Shown one piece after another: positions 42,775 through 53,772 of a stretch of 64,000 nt of DNA. The notes below the pieces were generated by a model. It was not told the DNA's origin, did not search any database, and worked only from the letters and a program-made list of their open reading frames with translations. Every line of letters starts with the position of its first letter. Within the stretch, counting starts at the first letter, position 1. The DNA is from Sphingomonas panacis (GTDB taxonomy: Bacteria; Pseudomonadota; Alphaproteobacteria; Sphingomonadales; Sphingomonadaceae), in the NCBI RefSeq assembly GCF_001717955.1, contig NZ_CP014168.1, forward strand, positions 4,123,501 to 4,187,500. Reading direction: 5' to 3'. The translations under genes were made by a program, and so were the position numbers.

Positions 42775-43335
42775 TTAAGCATTCGGATATTCTGGACCGT
42801 AGCCGTTCCACGAATCCCCCTGACTGTTCTCTGGCAAAAAGCTGTCAACAAATTGACCGATGACCATTGTGTAATATTGTCCGGGATAAATTTGACCGCG
42901 CGGCATGCAAATCTCAATCGGGAAAAACTGATGGATTCCCGGTTCAAGTCGCTCGATTATTGTTTTCAGGGCCTCGTCCACTGCCACGACGCCATCGTTT
43001 AACTCAATCAAAGATCCGAGCGTTTTATAGCTCTTTTCGGTTGCAAACGATCGCGGTGCCTCGTGGGGTTCAACCGGCCTGAAAGGCGGATAGTCCGGAC
43101 TGCCCGGCCTCACCGTTCCCCGCTCTCTCGTAAATTTCCCAACAACAAAATTGCCGTAGTTTCCGGCTCCATAACCGACGTGATTGTCGCCATAGTCGAA
43201 CAGCCTCCGCTGCTCCTCAGGAGTCTGCGCCAAGTAGTGAAGGCGAAGACGCTCGCTCCATCGACCATCCCGCACCTTGGCATCGAACTCAAAATCTGCG
43301 TCCGGCCAAAATTCACCGAAGTTCGAAGGTAAACT
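42775..43335 (-). CDS. Hypothetical protein, DUF1629/Imm11-like
   Basis: About 186 residues from ATG 43335 (the frame is open to 43416). Features GSLIELNDGVVAVDEALKTI and LEPGIHQFFPIEI recall the DUF1629/immunity-protein family found beside polymorphic toxins. The C-terminus (SWNGYGPEYPNA) looks short, so it may be truncated. No toxin gene lies next to it, so it may be an orphan immunity gene. Confidence 0.5.
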   Translation of the reverse strand, partial: SLPSNFGEFWPDADFEFDAKVRDGRWSERLRLHYLAQTPEEQRRLFDYGDNHVGYGAGNYGNFVVGKFTRERGTVRPGSPDYPPFRPVEPHEAPRSFATEKSYKTLGSLIELNDGVVAVDEALKTIIERLEPGIHQFFPIEICMPRGQIYPGQYYTMVIGQFVDSFLPENSQGDSWNGYGPEYPNA

Positions 43336-43595
43336 CATTCCCCAAACCATCACGCTGCCTCCTGCGCGCCGAACAGGCTCGCGAAATCTCCCATATCTGG
43401 AAACTGATACTGGCAAGGCGTTAAGGTCTGCCTGTCATTGAAACGCCTGACGCCAATCACATGGCGGGCGGCGGCTTTCGCCTGATTGTCGTACATCTTA
43501 GGCATGAAGTAGGCCCACAATCAGCGCGAAAGGAAAGGGGGAGCCGAAATCTTACGCTCGAGCACGGGAAGCGCCACTGAATCATCAACAGCAAT

Positions 43596-44543
43596 CTATT
43601 CTGCTGCCGTCAACTCGATTGTGTCGATAACCCGTGCGACAATATGTTTGATGTGCGGGTACTCAAGCAGTCCACGATGGCTTGTATCATAAAAAGCGAG
43701 TTCGAGCGCAGGCGCGTCAACATTGATGGCTTCACGAAGGACAAAGTGCTTATCGGACGCATCCGAGAACAAAAGTATTTTGCTATTAGAGCGGTTCCCC
43801 TGAAAGCGATAGTGTCTCGACGCATCCAGCAATTCGTCTATAAAGTCGAATTGCCAAGTCGGATTTACAAGGTCACGCTTTATATGGCTGCGGTCGGGAT
43901 GGCCGTCGCGAGCCTTATAAACACGTTCAACGCGCCCAACCTTGTCCGCTTTTAAGAAGTCTGAACTGGCGAATAGCTCGTCAATGAACTCTGGACCCGC
44001 CATTATTTTTGTGAAAAATCGCCAGACGTCTTCACTGCCTTTTTCGCGGCATTGCTGCATAACCTTCCGCACTGAAAAGTCCAAATTAGCGTCGAGCCCA
44101 AACGCCACCGCGACAGGGATACCCCGCCGATCGAGCTTATCCTGTAAGTTGAGCGCCAGATCAGCTCCAACGCACCATCCACCCAAAACAAGAGGATATA
44201 CGGGCTGTAGAGCCTCGATCAACCCAACATAGTAGCTCGCAAGGGCTTCAATGCCGGCATGCTGCTGGATCGTTTCGGGATTTCTTGGCGACTCCACCCC
44301 ATACAGAGCGAAACCGGCCGGAACCTCGCGGAACAAACTCCCGTAGGACGAGATCATTCCGCCGATGGCATGAAAGCAAACGACGGTGCCGAGACCATTC
44401 CCTTCCCGAATGCGGACCAAATTGGGAAAGTGCTTTAGCGGTCTAGATATCAAATCACCCTCCACGCCGACAAGTCGATAGGATAGATACCTCCGATACG
44501 CAGTCGTTGGCAATAATCGAATTTGTCTCCGGGTTACATCCAA
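43596..44543 (-). CDS. Free-standing thioesterase with Cys nucleophile
   Basis: 315 residues of the alpha/beta-hydrolase fold used by the thioesterase domains of peptide and polyketide synthetases: VCFHAIGGMISSYGSLF (oxyanion loop), GYGVESP-like strand, the elbow LGGWCVGADLA, an acid at LDANLD (D151) and the His in TSHRGLLEYP (H289). The nucleophile is Cys124 where family members have Ser (GWSxG). Cys thioesterases are known from ObiF-type enzymes that form beta-lactones and from a few macrocyclases, so it may catalyse cyclisation or transfer, not simple hydrolysis. Divergent from the operon at 44670. No carrier or adenylation domain is fused to it. Confidence 0.8.
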   Translation of the reverse strand: MDVTRRQIRLLPTTAYRRYLSYRLVGVEGDLISRPLKHFPNLVRIREGNGLGTVVCFHAIGGMISSYGSLFREVPAGFALYGVESPRNPETIQQHAGIEALASYYVGLIEALQPVYPLVLGGWCVGADLALNLQDKLDRRGIPVAVAFGLDANLDFSVRKVMQQCREKGSEDVWRFFTKIMAGPEFIDELFASSDFLKADKVGRVERVYKARDGHPDRSHIKRDLVNPTWQFDFIDELLDASRHYRFQGNRSNSKILLFSDASDKHFVLREAINVDAPALELAFYDTSHRGLLEYPHIKHIVARVIDTIELTAAE

Positions 44544-44669
44544 AATGAATGCATTGATTGGCTTTAATTGCTTATGAGTTTATCTCTCTAATTGTTTTAG
44601 AAATCTCATTACGGTCATGGCGTTGCCGGTGCCATCATAGTTGAAGATGTATCTAGGGCGCCTTCAAGT
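44544..44669. promoter_or_regulatory. Divergent promoter region of the biosynthetic cluster
   Basis: 126 AT-rich bases between the thioesterase gene and the BKACE operon, the only interval long enough to drive the eight-gene operon. No confident -35/-10 pair or operator could be assigned. Confidence 0.4.
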
Positions 44670-45581
44670 ATGAATAATTTTTCAAGTTCACTAAGGCTAG
44701 AGGAGCGGGAAAATGACAAGGGAAATTCGGGCTTTATAGTCAATCTTTGCCCCACCGGGATGATTCCGGTTCGAGCCCAGGTTCCCGCTGTCCCGATCAC
44801 GCCGAAGGAGATCGGTCTGGATGTTGGCCGCTGCTACGATGCCGGGGCGGCGATGGTGCACCTCCATGCGCGCGAGGATGACGAGAGCCCAACATGGCGG
44901 GGTGAGCGGTTCGAAGAGATCATCACCGAGGTCCTCTTGAGGGCACCCGAAATTATAGTCTGTGTGACAAGTAGCGGGCGAAACTGGAGCGATCTGCCTC
45001 GTCGAACCGAAGCGCTATCAATCCCAGACCCACACAAGCCGGAATTAGCGTCCTTAACTCTGGGGTCGATGAACTTTCCCAAGAGTGCATCCGTTAACGC
45101 ACCTGACACGATCATCGGCCTTATAGATGCAATGCAGGCGGCTAACATCGTGCCTGAGCTTGAGGTCTTTGACGTCGGTATGGCGAACTACGCCCGCTCT
45201 TTGGCGAAGGCGGGACGTCTAAAGCCGCCTTACTATTTTAACATCCTTCTGGGTTCCTTAGGTACCGCGGATTTCAACGCTACGAATATAGCTGCGATAG
45301 TAGGGTCCCTGCCCGAGGGATCGACCTGGGCGCTTGCCGGCATCGGAAGATATCAGCTTTCCGCCAACGTAACGTCGCTGACCCTTGGCGGACATGTCCG
45401 CGTTGGTCTTGAGGATAATCCATATTTTGACTGGCGAACGCGAGAACCGGCAACAAATCCTCGGCTAGTTGAGCGCTTGGTGCGTTTAGGAAGGGAACTC
45501 GGGCGGGAGCCCGTTACACCTCGAATCGCACGGGAAATTATCGGAATCCGACAGAAGGAAGAGGTGATTTCCGCATGCTGA
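44670..45581 (+). CDS. Beta-keto acid cleavage enzyme (BKACE/DUF849 family)
   Basis: 303 residues. The TIM-barrel family motifs are present: LPITP-like AVPITPKEIGLD, the metal-binding AMVHLHARED (H64, H66), ELEVFDVGM, and GGHVRVGLEDNPYF with the third ligand E248. Kce-type members exchange an acetyl-CoA with a beta-keto acid to give acetoacetate or acetoacetyl-CoA plus a new acyl-CoA. Substrate range is broad and cannot be read from the sequence. First gene of the cluster operon; its end overlaps ribA by 7 bp. Confidence 0.88.
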   Translation: MNNFSSSLRLEERENDKGNSGFIVNLCPTGMIPVRAQVPAVPITPKEIGLDVGRCYDAGAAMVHLHAREDDESPTWRGERFEEIITEVLLRAPEIIVCVTSSGRNWSDLPRRTEALSIPDPHKPELASLTLGSMNFPKSASVNAPDTIIGLIDAMQAANIVPELEVFDVGMANYARSLAKAGRLKPPYYFNILLGSLGTADFNATNIAAIVGSLPEGSTWALAGIGRYQLSANVTSLTLGGHVRVGLEDNPYFDWRTREPATNPRLVERLVRLGRELGREPVTPRIAREIIGIRQKEEVISAC

Positions 45582-46162
45582 CGCGAGCTGCTTCGGCCAA
45601 GCTTCCTGTGACTGTCGAAGGCGAGATCTACTCGTTCGACGTTACTGGCTATGTCCATAATTCCGATGAGATCCTGGCGATTGCATATGGTCAGTGGAAG
45701 GCTCCCCCCGCCTTGGTGCGGGTGCATAGCGCCTGCCTCACAGGCGATGCCTTGGGCTCAGCGCGTTGCGACTGTCAGGCTCAGCTTCATGGTGCCTTTG
45801 AGGCGATCGTTGATCGAGGCGCCGGCATATTGATCTACATGTGCGACCATGAAGGCCGGGGCATCGGCTTGATGAATAAGTTGCGTGCTTATTCACTTCA
45901 GGACGGTGGGGCGGACACCGTAGATGCCAACACATCTCTTGGCCTGCCAATAGACAGTCGGGATTTTACTGGAGCCGCCAAAGTTCTTGATGATCTTGGC
46001 GTTAATGTGATCGAGTTGATGACAAATAACCCAGATAAGGTCGAAGCACTCACCGCCCTTGGCGTGACGGTCATAAGGCGTGTTCCTATCCTGGCCGAGG
46101 TACACACTCACAACACAAATTACCTGAGCGCAAAACGAGCCAGGTTGCGCCATTTGTTATAG
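45575..46162 (+). CDS. ribA: GTP cyclohydrolase II
   Basis: 195 residues, close to E. coli RibA in length. Zinc ligands C54, C65 and C67 fall in VRVHSACLTGDALGSARCDC at the same numbers as in E. coli. HEGRGIGLMNKLRAYSLQD with the catalytic Arg, DANTSLGLPIDSRDF and LMTNNPDKVEAL are all conserved. It opens GTP to 2,5-diamino-6-ribosylamino-pyrimidinone phosphate, formate and pyrophosphate, the first step of riboflavin synthesis. It is not fused to RibB. In this operon it sits with riboflavin synthase but without RibB, RibD or RibH. Confidence 0.93.
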   Translation: MLTRAASAKLPVTVEGEIYSFDVTGYVHNSDEILAIAYGQWKAPPALVRVHSACLTGDALGSARCDCQAQLHGAFEAIVDRGAGILIYMCDHEGRGIGLMNKLRAYSLQDGGADTVDANTSLGLPIDSRDFTGAAKVLDDLGVNVIELMTNNPDKVEALTALGVTVIRRVPILAEVHTHNTNYLSAKRARLRHLL

Positions 46163-46172
46163 GGGATAGATC

Positions 46173-46943
46173 ATGGAAAACCGTTGGACTGCGGCTGCGG
46201 ATTATGATCAATTCGCGGCACGCTTGCAGAAACGCAATGCGGCAATCTTAGCTAACGCCATTCCGAACGGCCCAGTCTATAGTCATGTGCTCGATGCTGG
46301 CTGTGGTACTGGGTTTGCGACGGCCGCCTTGCTGGAAGCGCGTCCCGTGCGAACCGTGACAGCCGTGGACGTGTCGCGGGAGATGCTTACTCAGGCTGAG
46401 CGGAACTTGCTGAGGTTCCGCGAACACGAAATTCTGTATGTTAATCAGTCCATTACAGACTTAGGCGGATCTCAACCCTATGATCTGATCATATCAAATG
46501 CTGCACTGCATTGGACCTATCCGGACATCGGAGGCGCCATCGATCATCTCGCGGGACTTCTTCGCCCTGGCGGATGCATCGCGTTCACAACAGCGGGCCG
46601 ATCGGTAGCTTCGGAAGAGTTCGACGAGAAAATTTCGAACGCCATCGTAGCGGTTGGTGGAACGATCGATCGCCATCCATTCCGTCAACGGCGGATCAGC
46701 CCGGACGAGGCCACCCGTTTTTGCGAGGCGGCCGGGTTGGACGTCATCGAAGCGTTTATCATCGAGCGGGCTACGAACGTGGCCCCTGCTGAATATGTTG
46801 CCTGGGCTTCATCGAGCGGGCGCGCTTGGACGGAGCTTCCGGGCGGAGAGGCGTCCTTAGCCGCTGAGCTTCTGGCAGATCAAGAGGAGTTCCGTGTCGG
46901 CCACTGGTCTACCCTGATCGTCGCTCGATCCGTTCAGAATTGA
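46173..46943 (+). CDS. SAM-dependent methyltransferase, BioC-like
   Basis: 256 residues. The N-terminus (WTAAADYDQFAARLQKRNA) and SAM site VLDAGCGTGFATAALLEA with the later SNAALHWTYPDIGGAIDHL match BioC, the malonyl-ACP O-methyltransferase of biotin synthesis. With an ACP encoded three genes downstream, an O-methylation of a carrier-bound carboxylate is plausible, but other small-molecule methyltransferases share these motifs. Confidence 0.8.
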   Translation: MENRWTAAADYDQFAARLQKRNAAILANAIPNGPVYSHVLDAGCGTGFATAALLEARPVRTVTAVDVSREMLTQAERNLLRFREHEILYVNQSITDLGGSQPYDLIISNAALHWTYPDIGGAIDHLAGLLRPGGCIAFTTAGRSVASEEFDEKISNAIVAVGGTIDRHPFRQRRISPDEATRFCEAAGLDVIEAFIIERATNVAPAEYVAWASSSGRAWTELPGGEASLAAELLADQEEFRVGHWSTLIVARSVQN

Positions 46944-46971
46944 CGGCCTCGCAGGTGTCGAGGATGCTATC

Positions 46972-48555
46972 ATGAACTTGGCTTCGTCGGCGGTTGTGGA
47001 TTCGAGCTGCCCCTACGCAAGTCAGGTGGCATTGGACGTTATGCAGGCCGGAGGGACCGCAGCCGATGCAGCGATAGCTGCGAGCGCGGTTCTGTTCGTC
47101 ACGTTGCCAATGTGTTGTGGGCCTGGCGGTGACCTGGCGGCGATTTGTTTCGATGCAGCGTCAAGAAAGGTTCTTTCCCATACCGCCTTTGGTCGTACCC
47201 CTCAAAGGGCAACGCGGGAGTTTCTAGCCAGTTTAGGGCATAAGGCCGTCCCGCGTATCGGCATAATGTCAGCTACCATACCCGCTGCAGCAGAGGGGCT
47301 GGTGTCAATGCACCATCGTATGGGTACGAGACCGCTCGAAGAGCTGTTCGAACCGGCGATCACGGCGGCCCGCGATGGCGTGGTCGTTACCGGTCAAATG
47401 CACAAATGGATTAAGAACAATATCACGGTTATCAAAGACGATGAAACATGCTCTGCGATATTCCTGCCTGGTGGCAAGGCTATCCAGACTGGATCTATAC
47501 TTAGGCAACCCCAATTGGGAGCATTCCTAGACAAAGTTGCGCGTGGTTCTGCCAGCTATCTACAAAGCGATGAATATCGTAACGCGGTGTTACAGTTCAC
47601 AGAAAAACAAGGTGGATTGTTTTCACTTTCCGACTTTGAACAATCACAGGTTGATATTCACGAGCCGATCACATTGCGTTTAGGCGAACATACGGTTCAC
47701 ACGAACCCAGCGCCGAGTCAAGGAGCGATCCTTCTGCGTAATCTCGCCATGTATGATTTTGCAGTTCAAAATTCGTTACATACTGGCACAAACCGTATTC
47801 ATGTCTGGAGAGAGATATTCAACCAGACCTACAACTGGCGACTTCGCGCGCTAGGTGATCTAGACGCATATTGCACCGATTTCTGGCTCGAAGACCTTCC
47901 GGGAGACTGCTCCGCAATCAAAGCCCGTCACCGATCGCAGTGCCTTTACAAGGGCCACTACAGCGAGGGTGACACTACCCAGTTCGTCGTAGGCGATAAG
48001 GTTGGTAATTCGGTCTCGATGATACTTAGTTTGTCGCTCGGCTTCGGATCAGGCGTGGCGGAACCGAGCACTGGCATCATATTCAACAGTCGATTGGGCA
48101 GAAGCATGCCCCTCAAAGCCGGTCTGGCAAATTCCCTCAAACCGGGAAAGCGGCCTGTCAACACTATCCACGCCTACGCCGTGACAACGGAGCATGGACT
48201 ATCATTCTCTGGAGGGACACCTGGTGGGGATGGGCAGGTGCAGTGGAATGCAGCCACCTTGGCGGCTGCACTCGTCGATGGAATGCGATTAGAGCAGGCC
48301 GCCCACGCCCCTAGGTTCACCTGTTTCCCCGGCGCCGATCTCATCGAGGCCGGAGAGGAAGGGCGCATCGAGTTAGAAAGCGGCCTCACGGCGGAACGCG
48401 AGGAACTGGAGTCGCTCGGCCATACCGTCAAGATCAGGGATCGTGTTCAAGGAAGCATACGCATCGCCGAGAGGGTCGATGGTGGTTGGATAGCCCACCA
48501 CGATGGGCATGACGACGGGTCCTCAATTGGTACCGCACAAGGCTGGGAGCGATAA
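46972..48555 (+). CDS. Gamma-glutamyltransferase-like Ntn hydrolase, cytoplasmic
   Basis: 527 residues with the GGT pattern: GGTAADAAIAASAVLFVT, CCGPGGDLAAICFDAA, and the autocleavage site SEGDTTQFVVGDKVGNSVS in which T335 would become the N-terminal nucleophile, followed by SLGFGSGVAEPSTGII and SGGTPGGDGQVQWNA. No signal peptide, whereas ordinary bacterial GGTs are periplasmic. It could attach or remove a gamma-glutamyl group on an intermediate, a known protection device in some pathways. The role here is inference. Confidence 0.88.
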   Translation: MNLASSAVVDSSCPYASQVALDVMQAGGTAADAAIAASAVLFVTLPMCCGPGGDLAAICFDAASRKVLSHTAFGRTPQRATREFLASLGHKAVPRIGIMSATIPAAAEGLVSMHHRMGTRPLEELFEPAITAARDGVVVTGQMHKWIKNNITVIKDDETCSAIFLPGGKAIQTGSILRQPQLGAFLDKVARGSASYLQSDEYRNAVLQFTEKQGGLFSLSDFEQSQVDIHEPITLRLGEHTVHTNPAPSQGAILLRNLAMYDFAVQNSLHTGTNRIHVWREIFNQTYNWRLRALGDLDAYCTDFWLEDLPGDCSAIKARHRSQCLYKGHYSEGDTTQFVVGDKVGNSVSMILSLSLGFGSGVAEPSTGIIFNSRLGRSMPLKAGLANSLKPGKRPVNTIHAYAVTTEHGLSFSGGTPGGDGQVQWNAATLAAALVDGMRLEQAAHAPRFTCFPGADLIEAGEEGRIELESGLTAEREELESLGHTVKIRDRVQGSIRIAERVDGGWIAHHDGHDDGSSIGTAQGWER

Positions 48556-49182
48556 ATGTATAGTGGAATCGTACAGACCCGCGCCAGGGTCGTAGGTGTA
48601 GATGAGCACGATGGAGCCCTAAACGTAACCGTCCAAGTCGGTCCCGATCATCTAAAGGACGTCAAAATCGGGGCGAGCATCGCATTAGACGGTGTCTGCA
48701 TGACGGTGGTGGACCACAGCGAAAACACCGTGACCTTCAACGCGGTGCAGGCCACGATCGATGCAACTAATATTGGCGATAGACGCGTTGGTGACCTCCT
48801 GAACTTCGAGCGTTCATTACGCTTCGGCGACGAGAATGGCGGTCATGCGGTCTCCGGCCACATCTACGGCGTTGGCCGGATTGCTAGTATGACAAAAGTT
48901 GGCCGTGGTGCGCTCGTATTTGTAGAAGCGCCGTCCGATCTCATGCCATTCATATTCACCAAGGGTTTTATCACCGTCGATGGCGCAAGTCTAACGGTCG
49001 GACGGATCGGGACGAACGGAGCCGGTTTCGAACTCAATCTGATACCCGAAACGCTCAGGCAAACTGTATTTGAGCTTCGGGGGACAAACGCACGCGTCAA
49101 TCTCGAAGTAGACTACCAAACCGTTGTGATCGTTCAGTCCATAAACGCGGCTATTAAACGGCAAGGGCAGTCCATCGAATAA
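48556..49182 (+). CDS. ribE: Riboflavin synthase, alpha subunit
   Basis: 208 residues with two lumazine-binding repeats: MYSGIVQTRARV, ASIALDGVCMTVVD, NIGDRRVGDLLNFERSL, GGHAVSGHIYGVG in the first and FITVDGASLTVG, LIPETLRQTV, ARVNLEVDYQTVV in the second. Key residues look intact. It converts two 6,7-dimethyl-8-ribityllumazine into riboflavin and a pyrimidine. The ATG follows the previous stop with no gap. Its occurrence beside ACP and exporter genes is unusual. Confidence 0.92.
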   Translation: MYSGIVQTRARVVGVDEHDGALNVTVQVGPDHLKDVKIGASIALDGVCMTVVDHSENTVTFNAVQATIDATNIGDRRVGDLLNFERSLRFGDENGGHAVSGHIYGVGRIASMTKVGRGALVFVEAPSDLMPFIFTKGFITVDGASLTVGRIGTNGAGFELNLIPETLRQTVFELRGTNARVNLEVDYQTVVIVQSINAAIKRQGQSIE

Positions 49183-49206
49183 ATCCGGCGGATCGAGGAA
49201 AGCATC

Positions 49207-49452
49207 ATGACATCTCTAAACCACATAAGCGACATACTTTACGAAATGCTCAAAATAGATAAAGATAGTGTCACCCCAGAATCAAATATCAGAACCGATC
49301 TAAATATAGATAGTCTTGAAATGGTGGAAATAGTTGTTGAACTAGAGGACATATTGGAGATTAAGCTACCAGAAGATAATTTTAATTCTATTATAAATAT
49401 TGGAGATCTAGTGAATCTGGTCGATGTGGCTTCCAAAAATAAGGGTGGATAA
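49207..49452 (+). CDS. Acyl carrier protein
   Basis: 81 residues, acidic, four-helix pattern, with the phosphopantetheine site DLNIDSLEMVEIV (S36). It is visibly richer in A and T than its neighbours, suggesting separate origin. As a discrete ACP without ketosynthase or adenylation genes nearby, it probably carries an acyl group for the methyltransferase, BKACE product or thioesterase. No phosphopantetheinyl transferase is in the window. Confidence 0.92.
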   Translation: MTSLNHISDILYEMLKIDKDSVTPESNIRTDLNIDSLEMVEIVVELEDILEIKLPEDNFNSIINIGDLVNLVDVASKNKGG

Positions 49453-49457
49453 TAAGA

Positions 49458-49757
49458 ATGTTTGTTTCTTCATTCAAGCTTATACCTAAAGCAGGTTTGG
49501 AACTGAAGGCGATCGAGGCAGCTAAAAATATGTCGTTGCTGTTAAAGCTTCACTGCGGCAGCAACGGCTCAAGTCTATATCGTGGTTTAGACGGAGGACT
49601 CTATGCCCACGCAAAATGGCCGAGCCTCACGATATGGGAACAGCGGGAGCGTGATATCGTCGCACTCCACGATGCTAAAGCGGACATGGACAAATTTGTG
49701 TCCGATATACGACCGATATTTTCCAGCACAGAATTAATATTCAGCAGCATCGAATAG
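49458..49757 (+). CDS. ABM-fold (antibiotic biosynthesis monooxygenase-like) protein
   Basis: 99 residues. The pattern of two beta-alpha-beta units with LYAHAKWPSLTIWEQRERD is like the dimeric ferredoxin-like ABM domain. Such proteins act as cofactor-free oxygenases or as cyclases in secondary metabolism. Starts five bases after the ACP stop. Assignment rests on weak motifs. Confidence 0.55.
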   Translation: MFVSSFKLIPKAGLELKAIEAAKNMSLLLKLHCGSNGSSLYRGLDGGLYAHAKWPSLTIWEQRERDIVALHDAKADMDKFVSDIRPIFSSTELIFSSIE

Positions 49758-49794
49758 ATTCATTTTGTATAATTTACAAATGTGGTGAGGAATA

Positions 49795-50973
49795 ATGAAA
49801 TCATCTAGCGGCCTTCCTATCCTTGCTGTGGCCTTTCCGGCATTTTTAAGCCTCTTGGGTTCAGGCGTAGTTGTGCCGCTTCTACCGCTCTATGGAAGGT
49901 CATTTGGATCAGAGCCGTGGTTAATTGCTGTCTTGTTTTCAGCATACGCTATTGGGGCAATATTCGGAGAGCCATATTGGGGGCGCTTATCTGATCAAAT
50001 CGGGCGAAAACGGGTTTTAATTTTGACACTTTCCATGAGTGCAGTTTGCTGGCTTGCGCTCTCATTTAGCGGGAGCGTGCTTCTATCCGTGTTTATAAGA
50101 GTGGTTACTGGATTCGTCGCAGGCAATAATTCTGTTTTGCAAGGATATGTATCCGATCGCACTTCAGGAGAGCAGCGCTTAAAAGCTATAAGCATTTTAA
50201 GTGCGACTTCTCATTTTGGTTTCATGGCTGGCCCGGTACTCGGGGGGCTTTTGGTTGGAGATCCACATAGCCCACTTGGATACAAAACGGTGTTCCTAAC
50301 TTGCACCGTTCTAGCTATCCTTGCCGCCTTTCTAATGGCCATTATTCTCCCAAATGAGAATAATATATCTCAAAGTAAAAGTAAGAAAATGATCTGGCGG
50401 GCAATCCCGAAGGAGACGCAATCATTGATTGGCCTGACATTTCTATATGGTACGATAGCTTCATCCATAGAGGTCCTATTTTCTCTATGGGCTAACCACG
50501 AATTTGGATGGGGAGCAAAAGAAATAGGCCTATTTTTCGCATTTTCCGCCCTAGTTGCCGCGATTACACAATTAATTATTATCCCACTGTGGATGTCGCG
50601 CATTTCTTTCAAGACTGGTATTATAATTGGTTTTGCCGGGGTGGCATTTTCAACATTGGGTCAGTTGATCGCAAATGACGTAGCGCTAGCAGTTTCTCTA
50701 ATGGCATTCACAAGTCTCGCTAGAGCCATTTCATGGGCGTTTATATCAACGAGAATTGCGACTATTACTGAAAACTCTGATCGTGGTGCTGTCCTTGGTC
50801 AAAATGCGTCCGCGTTCGCAATCGCACGGGTAATTGGCCCTATCCTTGCCGGCCTTCTTGCGACGGCTACTGGGAGCCTAAATCCGTTTATCCTGCCTAC
50901 AATCCTATTAGCGGCGGCTGCAATGGTTGTTGGCCGCGTTGTTCGGATGAAGCCAGATGGCGATACGCGGTAA
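49795..50973 (+). CDS. MFS exporter, last gene of the cluster
   Basis: 392 residues with twelve predicted helices and the drug-efflux MFS loop GEPYWGRLSDQIGRKRVLIL between helices 2 and 3, resembling TetA-like antiporters. Low in GC compared with most of the window. As the final gene of the operon it is the likely exporter of the product and may give self-resistance. Confidence 0.9.
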   Translation: MKSSSGLPILAVAFPAFLSLLGSGVVVPLLPLYGRSFGSEPWLIAVLFSAYAIGAIFGEPYWGRLSDQIGRKRVLILTLSMSAVCWLALSFSGSVLLSVFIRVVTGFVAGNNSVLQGYVSDRTSGEQRLKAISILSATSHFGFMAGPVLGGLLVGDPHSPLGYKTVFLTCTVLAILAAFLMAIILPNENNISQSKSKKMIWRAIPKETQSLIGLTFLYGTIASSIEVLFSLWANHEFGWGAKEIGLFFAFSALVAAITQLIIIPLWMSRISFKTGIIIGFAGVAFSTLGQLIANDVALAVSLMAFTSLARAISWAFISTRIATITENSDRGAVLGQNASAFAIARVIGPILAGLLATATGSLNPFILPTILLAAAAMVVGRVVRMKPDGDTR

Positions 50974-51155: not shown

Positions 51156-51302
51156 TGCTCATTGGCTACATGCGTGTTTCTTCTACCGACGACCGGCAAC
51201 CGGTCGATCTTCAGCGCGATGCGTTGATCGCAGCCGGGGTCGATTCCCGGCACCTCTTTTCCGACAAGGCCTCGGGCGCCCGCGAGGATCGCACTAGCCT
51301 TA
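51155..51302 (+). pseudogene. Serine resolvase, N-terminal part (interrupted)
   Basis: From ATG 51155 the frame reads LIGYMRVSSTDDRQPVDLQR and LFSDKASGAREDRTSL, the catalytic N-terminus of a Tn3-type resolvase with the active Ser in RVSS. After 49 residues it meets an IS at the target TA (51301-51302). Joined to 53330 the reading frame is restored exactly (RTSL-RACLDYLQAG). Confidence 0.88.
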
Positions 51303-52145
51303 GGTGCTGTCTGCATTTATCGTAGCCAGATCATGGTGCAGGCGAGATGGACGAAGCCCATGAATGCGGGGAGAGTTTTCTCGCAGCGCAGGGCGATCCG
51401 GCGGAAGCGCTTGAGCTTGTTGAAGAAGCATTCGACCTGATGGCGTTCCTTGTAGAGCTGCCAGTCGATCGGTGGCTTTCTGGTCCGGCTGGGATTGGCC
51501 TTGATCTGCGCGGTTGCGCCGAGATCATCGGCAATGAAGGCGCGTAGCGGATCGGCATCGTAGGCGGCATCGGCGATGACATGGCCGATGCCGTGCAGGC
51601 CGGTCAGGAGGCTCTTCGCTTGCGGGGCGTCCCCACGCTGCCCCGGTGTCGGATGGATACGGATCGGCAGGCCGATCGCATCGACAGCGGCGTGCAGTTT
51701 GGTCGTCAGCCCGCCCCGCGAACGGCCGATCGCGGCAGCTTCAGCCCCCCTTTTGCGCCGCTTGCATCGGCGTGAACCTTCGAGATGGTGCTGTCGATCA
51801 GGACATATTCGAAGTCCGGCGTGTCGGCCATCGTGTGGAAGAGCTTCTCCCAGACGCCTGCGTGCGACCAGCGCCGGAACCGCGCATGGACGCCGCTCCA
51901 CTTGCCGAACACTGCCGGTAGATCACGCCAGCGCGCCGCATTGCCGGCCATCCACAAAATGGCATCCACGAACAGCCGGTTATCAACACCGCTGCGGCCC
52001 CGTGTCCCGTCGCGCCCAGGAAGATATCCCTTGATGCGATCCCATTGCTCGTCCGTCAGCATGCGTCTGCTCATGGCTTGGCTCCTTCGCCAGCCTTGAA
52101 TCAGAACTCTTCGCCCAAGGAAATCCTACAAATGCAGACAGCACC
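51303..52145 (-). mobile_element. IS5-family element (IS427-like)
   Basis: 843 bp bounded by inverted repeats whose first 16 bases are identical (GGTGCTGTCTGCATTT) and flanked by TA on both sides, matching the TA target duplication of the IS427 group. Carries one transposase in two overlapping frames. It lies directly against the IS630 element. Confidence 0.88.
51317..52074 (-). CDS. IS5-family transposase, two frames joined by -1 frameshift
   Basis: OrfA (52074 to 51706) holds the N-terminal DUF4096 part MLTDEQWDRIKGYLPGRDG and the first DDE Asp in YVLIDSTISKVH. OrfB (to 51317) holds GGLTTKLHAAVDAIGLPI, the second Asp in IADAAYDAD and the Glu in ERHQVECFFNKLKRFRRI. They meet at AAAAGGGGGG (51745-51754, minus strand), a classic slippery run; a -1 shift continues OrfA into OrfB. 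The fused product is about 252 residues. Confidence 0.88.
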
Positions 52146-52147
52146 TA

Positions 52148-53327
52148 GTCATGTGAATCTAAAGTTCGCCACATAAGGTTTGCTCGGTTTTCTGGCAGAA
52201 GCGCTTGACCGAGGCGAGGATTTCGTCGGCGGATTTGGTCGATCTGTAGGGCTTCGGGCTTTCGTTGTGCCGGTCGATGAACGTGAGGATGTCGGCTTCG
52301 AGCTGACCGGTCGAACGATGGACGCCGCGCTGGAGTTGCTTTCTGGTCAACTCGGCGAACCAGCGCTCGACCTGATTGATCCATGACGCCGATGTCGGCG
52401 TGAAGTGCACGTGATAGTGCGGACGGCGGGCGAGCCAGGCCCTTACTTTGGCGGTTTTGTGGGTCGCGTAATTGTCCATGACGATGTGTACGTCGAGCCC
52501 GTCAGGTGCCGCCCGGTCGATCTGCTTGAGAAAGTCGAGAAACTCTGTGGCGCGGTGCCTTTTGTAGCATTTGCCGATGACGAAACCCGATGCGATGTCG
52601 AGCGCTGCGAACAGCGAGGTGGTGCCGTGCCGCACATAGCTGTGGGTCCGGCGCTCGGGAATGCCCGGCATCATGGGCAGCACCGGCTGCTCGCGGTCGA
52701 GCGCCTGAATCTGGCTCTTCTCATCGACGCTAAGGACGATCGCGCGGGTTGGAGGCGACAAATAAAGCCCGACGATATCGCGCACCTTGTCGACGAACAG
52801 CGGGTCGCTCGATAGCTTGAACGTCTGGCTACGATGCGGCTGCAACCCAAAGGCGTTCCACATCCGGCGGATCGTCGTATGCGAAAAGCCCGTCTCTGCC
52901 GCCATCGACCGGATCGACCAGTGGGTCGCATCGGCAGGCGTCGTGCGCAGTGTCCGCTCGATCACGGCGGCGACCTGATCGTCATCGATCGAGCGCGGCC
53001 TGCCGGGGCGAGCTTCGTCCAGAAGCCCGTCGATACGATCAGCCAAGAAGCGCCGACGCCACTTGCCCACCGTGTGCTCGTGAATGCCAAGCTCGGTCGC
53101 CACAACCTTGTTCTGCAAACCACCGGCGCAGCGCAGAATAATCCGACATCGTTCTGACAGCGAGCGCGATACCCGGTGCCGACGCACCTGTCGCTCCAGA
53201 TACGCGCGTTCCTCCGCCGTCACCACCAACGGCTCAATCGGACGACCCTTCGCAAACGCGTTCGCCATCAACGCCTCCCTCTCGGACGACGTTATATACA
53301 ATGTGACTTACTTCAGTTCCAGATGAC
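52148..53327 (-). mobile_element. IS630-family element
   Basis: 1180 bp with imperfect terminal inverted repeats (GTCATGTGAATCTAAAG and GTCATCTGGAACTGAAG at the two ends) and TA on each side, as IS630/Tc1 elements produce. It shares the middle TA (52146-52147) with the IS5-family element. Confidence 0.85.
52159..53268 (-). CDS. IS630-family transposase
   Basis: 369 residues from ATG 53268 (frame open to 53301). N-terminal HTH part (LSERCRIILRCAGGLQNKVV, TELGIHEHTVGKWRRRF) and DDE catalytic core: VLSVDEKSQIQALDR, VHIVMDNYATHKTAKV and FTPTSASWINQVERWFAELT carry the D, D, E. Full length, probably active. Confidence 0.92.
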   Translation of the reverse strand: MANAFAKGRPIEPLVVTAEERAYLERQVRRHRVSRSLSERCRIILRCAGGLQNKVVATELGIHEHTVGKWRRRFLADRIDGLLDEARPGRPRSIDDDQVAAVIERTLRTTPADATHWSIRSMAAETGFSHTTIRRMWNAFGLQPHRSQTFKLSSDPLFVDKVRDIVGLYLSPPTRAIVLSVDEKSQIQALDREQPVLPMMPGIPERRTHSYVRHGTTSLFAALDIASGFVIGKCYKRHRATEFLDFLKQIDRAAPDGLDVHIVMDNYATHKTAKVRAWLARRPHYHVHFTPTSASWINQVERWFAELTRKQLQRGVHRSTGQLEADILTFIDRHNESPKPYRSTKSADEILASVKRFCQKTEQTLCGEL

Positions 53328-53329
53328 TA

Positions 53330-53772
53330 GGGCCTGTCTGGACTATCTGCAGGCGGGCGATACGCTGGTAGTCTGGAAGCTGGACCGCCTCGGACGCTCT
53401 TTGCCGCATTTGCTGGCGATCCTTACCGATCTTAGGGAGCGTGGGGTCTCATTCCGGTCGCTCACCGAGCAGATGGATACGGGCACCCCGCATGGCGAGC
53501 TTCTATTCTCGCTCTTTGGTGCCCTCGCTCAATACGAACGGGCGCTTACACGCGAGCGGATTATGGCGGGGCTGGCGGCAGCGAAGCGGCGTGATCGACA
53601 TGGCGGTCGCCCTAAAACGATCGACGCGGAGAAGATTGAGCTGATAACCGCGGCCCTTGCCGCTGGTGCCATCAAGTCGTCCGTCTGCCGCACATTCAAT
53701 GTGCCTCGTTCAACGCTCGCGGATGCACTGGAGCGTATCGGATGGTCAGCGCCGGAAGCAACCGGCCCTTAA
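53330..53772 (+). pseudogene. Serine resolvase, C-terminal part (interrupted)
   Basis: Continues the resolvase after the IS pair: ACLDYLQAGDTLVVWKLDRL, the rest of the catalytic domain (FSLFGALAQYERALTRERI) and a C-terminal HTH (GAIKSSVCRTFNVPRSTLAD). It can be translated from ATG 53323 as a 149-residue protein, but without the active Ser it would be inactive. Precise removal of both IS would give a 196-residue resolvase. Confidence 0.88.

Follow-up and report, generated by a model that had tools for sequence, protein, structure and literature searches.

Nine open reading frames (ORFs) at positions 43596..50973 of a 64,000-nucleotide stretch of the Sphingomonas panacis genome (contig NZ_CP014168.1; the whole stretch is hereafter the window) encode a thioesterase with a cysteine nucleophile and, divergently from it, an operon for a BKACE/DUF849-family enzyme, a variant GTP cyclohydrolase II (RibA*), a methyltransferase, a RosG-family protein resembling gamma-glutamyltransferases (GGT), a riboflavin synthase, an acyl carrier protein (ACP), a 99-residue protein and a transporter of the major facilitator superfamily (MFS). 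We consider it about an even chance that the operon was acquired horizontally, belongs to a family not yet described and serves specialised metabolism; it would produce and export a GTP-derived, C–C-modified and methylated small molecule. This reading builds on the gene content, synteny, residue changes and rarity in the sampled genomes, which are direct observations. Six further loci also bring together the four enzymes RibA, BKACE, methyltransferase and GGT, so that their grouping in the window is more than chance.

The four-enzyme set recurs in actinobacterial loci

A tblastn search of plasmids with the window GGT matched 654 records, the best being from Streptomyces camelliae HUAS 2-6 (290 bits), and the other 19 matches listed scored at most 166 bits. 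In this plasmid locus (L006), the methyltransferase, BKACE and RibA genes are carried on one strand, and those for the GGT, an archaeal-type riboflavin synthase (TIGR01506), RibX, a substrate-binding protein and RosB on the divergent one. The window and S. camelliae proteins are 64% (BKACE), 45% (RibA), 35% (methyltransferase, MT2) and 36% (GGT) identical, and the two riboflavin synthases do not match each other. The S. camelliae GGT is WP_270086806, which the available part of PMC11039241 lists as RosG with RibE2, RibY and RosB as neighbours, and guesses to supply glutamate for RosB; the RibA, BKACE and methyltransferase next to them are not included in the ros cluster table of that part. S. 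cinnabarinus, which produces roseoflavin, encodes a BKACE (P0029) 89% identical to that of S. camelliae. An MFS-type ORF of the S. camelliae locus (L006 11039-12301), which is absent from the distributed gene table, was matched piecewise by relatives and is possibly decayed.

Scanning genome contigs with a BKACE alignment, a scan that is motif-biased, yielded 66 loci, in five of which (L007-L011) RibA, BKACE, methyltransferase and GGT were found together, namely in Streptantibioticus rubrisoli, Actinocrinis puniceicyclus (whose contig stops within the GGT), Saccharothrix algeriensis, 'Saccharothrix' ST-888 and Lentzea. The ST-888 genome (L010) is labelled Saccharothrix sp. but came from the sample of the Streptantibioticus family, so that its label is possibly wrong. 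An ABM-type gene and an MFS gene are each present in all six actinobacterial RibA-bearing loci, and the actinobacterial core is RibA, ABM, BKACE, methyltransferase and GGT, plus MFS in each locus. Hence the set is found assembled in other genomes rather than merely scattered. To the core are variably added glycosyltransferase (L006, L008, L009 and L011) or ATP-grasp genes (L007 and L010), and in the window the ACP and the Cys thioesterase. Near the Streptantibioticus locus, genes of the phosphoenolpyruvate (PEP)-mutase family (EDSTFPKVNS), non-ribosomal peptide synthetase, AMP-binding and ACP-thioesterase types were also observed (L139 7857-8705 and 11013-14264; L007 974-3582).

The cluster is rare in the samples. 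At E<=1e-90 the window GGT was found in one of 396 genomes sampled from the host order, its own; when the family alignment served as the query, some GGT was present at E<=1e-80 in 171 of 385 genomes sampled from the host class, the own copy scoring 757 bits and the next 400. Two of 345 genomes of the Streptantibioticus family matched at E<=1e-110, both being already known loci, and two of 249 of the Saccharothrix family, the centre genome and G1155. A search of 5.8 billion proteins returned one relative of the 99-residue protein (69%) and, for the GGT, a nearest relative at 79%; both have a longest contig of 5,612 bases, which suggests that they lie on one contig, and the equal longest contigs of five GGT and five BKACE matches (5,538; 8,019; 8,364; 11,358 and 46,610 bases) are likewise suggestive. 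Relatives of the GGT were also found in Rhodopila, Novosphingobium and Phenylobacterium (P0126, P0128 and P0129). Against plasmids, tblastn gave 23 records for the thioesterase, none covering 80% of it, and none for the 99-residue protein, which among 199 relatives matched its own genome only; 149 pattern matches in viral contigs included no relatives. Searches of open-access papers for such a gene set turned up no description of it.

RibA* carries two substitutions near its active-site motifs

All seven cluster RibAs have HSAC in place of the HSEC found in 15 of 17 others, the two exceptions being divergent paralogues. In addition, the Y-x-R stretch before EGR is altered at its third residue: the seven have C, L, T or P there, whereas R is found in all but one of the 15 other copies with this stretch, the exception being a Nocardiopsis copy with G. 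The 17 others include the E. coli sequence, and five loci repeating cluster copies and two weak matches (L124 and L126) were left out of the count. Both substitutions lie near conserved active-site motifs, and the three Zn-binding Cys and the equivalents of Tyr105 and Arg128 are retained in all seven. From sequence, the two changes fit an altered catalysis as well as insensitivity to an inhibitor. A tree in which the RibAs of window and host are sisters was disfavoured (p-AU 0.022).

The GGT probably acts other than on gamma-glutamyl groups

In the window GGT, the catalytic Thr335 aligns with the small-subunit start and the Gly-Gly pair is kept. The glutamyl-binding set of the E. coli enzyme, which we take to be R114, N411, Q430, D433, S462 and S463, is changed at every column (F73, S355, R374, R377, N397 and T398 in the window protein), as read by eye from a profile alignment in which the R114 column is the least certain. 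The gamma-glutamyl protection envisaged by the initial annotation is therefore not borne out. As a sign specific to the clade, the missing set was rejected, other distant GGT-like proteins being without it too; the only separating motif was R[LF]GRS, present in 17 of 17 chosen clade members and in 0 of 23 others. A quick tree of 52 rows, leaving out every second class locus and every second of P0138-P0160, placed 24 of the 25 chosen RosG-family proteins and P0138 in one clade (SH-aLRT 100), to which both the window GGT and the S. camelliae RosG belong and outside which P0137 falls.

According to the available part of PMC5519988, LmbA2991 is a GGT homologue with C–C bond hydrolase activity, whose small subunit begins TCHLDVVDRW. 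The PDB chain 6j3a shows this start and shares two motifs with the window GGT, PGGDxQxQW and, where autocleavage is predicted, GDT. GG.GQ.QW was also found in 15 of 23 GGT-like proteins outside the clade, and GDT and QxQW are common to most. Because these motifs and the missing glutamyl set are common outside the clade, the reading stays that the GGT probably acts other than by gamma-glutamyl chemistry, with C–C hydrolysis an unproven candidate role.

The BKACE belongs to a subfamily serving more than one pathway

The BKACE keeps the Zn ligands H64, H66 and E248 and has F167 where characterised cleavage enzymes carry the canonical Tyr, a Phe also present in three solved, uncharacterised DUF849 proteins (3no5, 3chv and 3fa5). 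According to PMC12871164 (available part), the Tyr-to-Phe change in BsfD of flavophos synthesis may be important for an outcome of C-acetylation rather than cleavage. As a specific sign of BsfD chemistry, however, the Phe was rejected, since every sampled BKACE row but Kce has it in the motif-biased scan. Among the 57 BKACE loci L016-L072, a hexapeptide-type transferase family neighbours the BKACE in 32 and a DegT-type aminotransferase in 14 (one member of each scanned), indicating that the subfamily serves more than one pathway; glycosyltransferase-type genes often adjoin these BKACEs too (representatives scanned). A role of the wider subfamily in sugar or polysaccharide pathways is suggested.

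Riboflavin synthase is a probable accessory

The cluster riboflavin synthase scores above the cut-offs of NF009566 (215.8 versus 180), NF006767 and TIGR00187. A riboflavin synthase was found in three of the seven RibA-bearing loci, of the eubacterial type in the window and of the archaeal type in L006 and L007. Neither type is near L009 and L011, which have the full core and flanks, and the archaeal type was not found in the L010 genome; L008 is cut off downstream and so cannot be judged. With three of seven loci carrying it, the enzyme is unlikely to be an obligatory step, hence the term accessory. This bears on the proposal of the initial annotation that the product is a flavin or lumazine derivative, the riboflavin synthase copy acting within the pathway on a modified lumazine, a proposal which we regard as unlikely. 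It agrees with the fold-defining double domain kept by the enzyme and with the position of the set beside rosB in S. camelliae, RosB acting on flavin mononucleotide (FMN), but not with the full-core loci and the L010 genome just described, nor with the window operon, in which the Pfam scan of the nine proteins found no RibB, RibD or lumazine synthase (RibH). A link to flavins is plausible, the set adjoining rosB together with a non-homologous riboflavin synthase, and is unproven.

The missing RibB, RibD and RibH also speak against an operon that simply adds to the riboflavin supply through duplicated housekeeping functions, which we hold to be very improbable. In keeping with such a role, both RibA and riboflavin synthase belong to riboflavin biosynthesis, and PMC11039241 (available part) ascribes higher riboflavin levels to ribE2 of the rosB locus, but the constant partners of RibA are BKACE, methyltransferase and GGT, RibA is altered at two positions, and both riboflavin genes are far from the host copies. 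The host genome has a separate RibA, 53% identical to that of the cluster, and a separate riboflavin synthase, 35% identical over 158 aligned positions, and on these strong differences a housekeeping duplicate was rejected. The operon is thus of a biosynthesis type rather than a mere copy of housekeeping riboflavin genes, and its set recurs elsewhere.

A third alternative is target duplication, in which the product would inhibit riboflavin biosynthesis, RibA* and riboflavin synthase would be insensitive or extra targets, and the warhead would come from BKACE, GGT and methyltransferase chemistry with no purine-derived ring required. Flavophos sets the precedent: this diketone phosphonate, made by a BKACE homologue, inhibits lumazine synthase, and its cluster includes a gene for lumazine synthase that gives immunity (PMC12871164, available part). 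The recruitment of two non-homologous riboflavin synthases fits this, as do L006 and L007, which also have RibX- and substrate-binding-type genes and, near an FMN riboswitch, a dihydroxybutanone phosphate (DHBP) synthase gene (L006 28100-28228 and L007 20657-20787, found by Rfam in two of the six actinobacterial loci). However, the constant partner is RibA, with riboflavin synthase confined to three loci, the window operon has no phosphonate gene, and the RibA changes fit altered catalysis equally, so we assign target duplication a low probability.

Organisation and genomic setting of the cluster

The cluster had been described as a Cys thioesterase gene diverging from a BKACE/RibA/methyltransferase/GGT/riboflavin synthase/ACP/MFS operon, and this layout was confirmed, the nine ORFs lying at the same coordinates in the ORF list and the named families being recovered by Pfam and NCBIfam for eight of the nine proteins, all but the 99-residue one (Table 1). 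The eight plus-strand genes overlap by 7 bases or are spaced by 0 to 37 bases, so one transcript is likely. The real BKACE start may be downstream of the ORF start. For the methyltransferase, the top NCBIfam match was BioC (86.5 bits), far below the cut-off of 184.95.

Table 1. Cluster genes and adjoining insertion elements in the window
Feature	Position	Strand	Support
Thioesterase, Cys nucleophile Cys124 in GGWCVG, divergent from operon	43596..44543	-	PF00975, 61.8 bits
BKACE/DUF849-family enzyme	44670..45581	+	PF05853, 261.8 bits
Variant GTP cyclohydrolase II (RibA*), HSAC and YMCDHEGRG	45575..46162	+	PF00925, 185.3 bits
S-adenosylmethionine-dependent methyltransferase, BioC/trans-aconitate-methyltransferase-like	46173..46943	+	Pfam/NCBIfam
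RosG-family GGT-like N-terminal nucleophile (Ntn) hydrolase, predicted nucleophile Thr335	46972..48555	+	PF01019, 299 bits
Riboflavin synthase, eubacterial type, two Lum_binding domains	48556..49182	+	PF00677, 128.2 bits; NF009566
Acyl carrier protein, Ser36 in DSLE	49207..49452	+	PF00550
99-residue protein, possibly ABM-like	49458..49757	+	one relative (69%) in protein search
MFS transporter, likely exporter	49795..50973	+	PF07690, 169.4 bits
Insertion element, DDE_Tnp_1 transposase in two overlapping frames	51301..52147		18-nucleotide perfect terminal inverted repeats
IS630-type insertion element, DDE_3 transposase	52135..53340	-	40-nucleotide imperfect inverted repeats

The GC content is 0.541 from the thioesterase to the riboflavin synthase gene and 0.442 from the ACP to the MFS gene, compared with 0.614 in the rest of the window, and the right side of this low-GC stretch is closed by two insertion elements. 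The GC drop and the flanking elements are consistent with horizontal acquisition of the operon. Left of the thioesterase gene, where the low-GC stretch begins, lies an Imm11-like immunity gene (42775-43416; PF07791, 30.9 bits). No tRNA was found in the window. Control of the operon by an FMN riboswitch was rejected, no Rfam family being matched in the window at gathering thresholds, and promoter-like sites were not in excess (8 versus 7.9 in shuffles).

The 99-residue protein had no Pfam match even at E<=5 and no match among PDB sequences at E<=10, and its earlier 'ABM-fold' label is a guess. The actinobacterial ABM genes themselves score variably against the Pfam cut-off of 23.1 bits (Lentzea 26.3; Saccharothrix 23.0, just short; ST-888 17). 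The 99-residue protein could be their counterpart.

A proposed pathway

In the pathway that we propose, the variant GTP cyclohydrolase II would open the ring of GTP, or of a related purine, giving a diaminopyrimidine, and the BKACE would make or break a C–C bond in a reaction of a beta-keto acid with an acyl thioester. The RosG-family Ntn hydrolase would then trim the BKACE unit via C–C or amide cleavage rather than gamma-glutamyl transfer, the methyltransferase would cap the molecule at a carboxylate or on its ring, the ABM-like small protein would oxidise or reshape the scaffold, and the MFS protein would export the product. In the window version, an acyl group on the ACP may be released or transferred by the Cys thioesterase, and other versions have, in place of ACP and thioesterase, a glycosyltransferase or ATP-grasp gene nearby. 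Riboflavin synthase would serve as an accessory that sustains the riboflavin supply against the product, or enlarges the flavin pool. Of the earlier view of a biosynthesis-type operon with an exported product, the operon and its recurring set stand, the gamma-glutamyl protection is not supported, and the flavin link is plausible though unproven.

Several results weigh against this pathway. The tree of RibAs from all columns, from which L119 and L123 were additionally left out, grouped the seven cluster copies (support 87/85), but with the two diagnostic positions masked the grouping was lost (2% of 200 bootstrap trees); RibA* as one clade, resting on these two positions only, was rejected, so that convergence of RibA* is possible. 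The BKACE tree, which left out two in three of L016-L072, did not resolve the RibA-bearing BKACEs as a single group. No adenylation or ketosynthase gene that might load the ACP was found in the operon by the Pfam scan of the nine proteins, and profile comparison of the 99-residue protein with the actinobacterial ABM proteins detected no similarity. Furthermore, a BKACE-GGT pair without RibA occurs in L012 and L014 of the scan and in L131, a genome found later, so the chemistry of the pair need not involve a purine; these loci are also without the methyltransferase and have an alanine-racemase-like gene nearby in all three, and look like a second pathway using the pair. L131 has aminotransferase, TauD-type dioxygenase and octopine-dehydrogenase-type genes as well. 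Finally, every reaction, the reaction order and the product class are predictions.

More specifically, the core set might be a rare pathway of distant phyla to a riboflavin-pathway antimetabolite of a new class, joining a GTP-derived pyrimidine to a BKACE-made dicarbonyl, an idea that we put forward as doubtful. If it were true, strains with rosB might be releasing a cooperating pair of vitamin B2 antagonists, and RosG would work in an antimetabolite pathway rather than supply glutamate to RosB. Among natural products targeting riboflavin biosynthesis, the available part of PMC12871164 names only phosphonothrixin and flavophos, and a further family linked to it would be useful for antibacterial research. 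The role of RosG, a guess so far (glutamate supply; PMC11039241, available part), becomes directly testable. Beside rosB in S. camelliae there would be an undescribed biosynthetic module common to distant phyla.

Comparison with known systems

Toxoflavin-type clusters presumably share with the window a RibA homologue and a methyltransferase; to our knowledge, toxoflavin loci have no BKACE, GGT, riboflavin synthase or ACP, and other tox-type genes were not among the nine window proteins scanned. A roseoflavin cluster was rejected, since S. camelliae RosB matched nothing in the host genome at E<=0.001; a RosB search of nine genomes gave five matches, 31-42% identical and none extending beyond residue 228 of 258. 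The methyltransferase matched 31 PDB sequences, without a RosA label among them, RosA and RosC sequences not having been used as queries.

With the GGT homologues LmbA and Ant6 of lincomycin and anthramycin (PMC5519988, available part), the window GGT shares the GDT site and PGGDxQxQW, but it belongs to a separate family, and the motifs are shared by many other GGT-like proteins. The likeness to BsfD-type BKACEs consists in the Phe, which is general in the sampled subfamily. The bsf cluster for flavophos of Burkholderia likewise combines a gene for a DUF849/BKACE enzyme that has Phe in place of the canonical Tyr with a copy of a riboflavin-pathway gene and a transporter gene (PMC12871164, available part). 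It differs in that no PEP mutase or other phosphonate gene was found among the nine cluster proteins (Pfam scan), that the window riboflavin genes are RibA and riboflavin synthase instead of lumazine synthase, and that no RibA, methyltransferase, GGT or ACP is mentioned for bsf in that part of the paper. Compared with the rosB locus (rosG-ribE2-ribX-ribY-rosB), the window has no RosB and no RibXY, its riboflavin synthase is eubacterial rather than archaeal, and it has an extra ACP, Cys thioesterase and 99-residue protein; the two loci are alike in the GGT (RosG), the extra riboflavin synthase and the adjacent RibA, BKACE and methyltransferase homologues.

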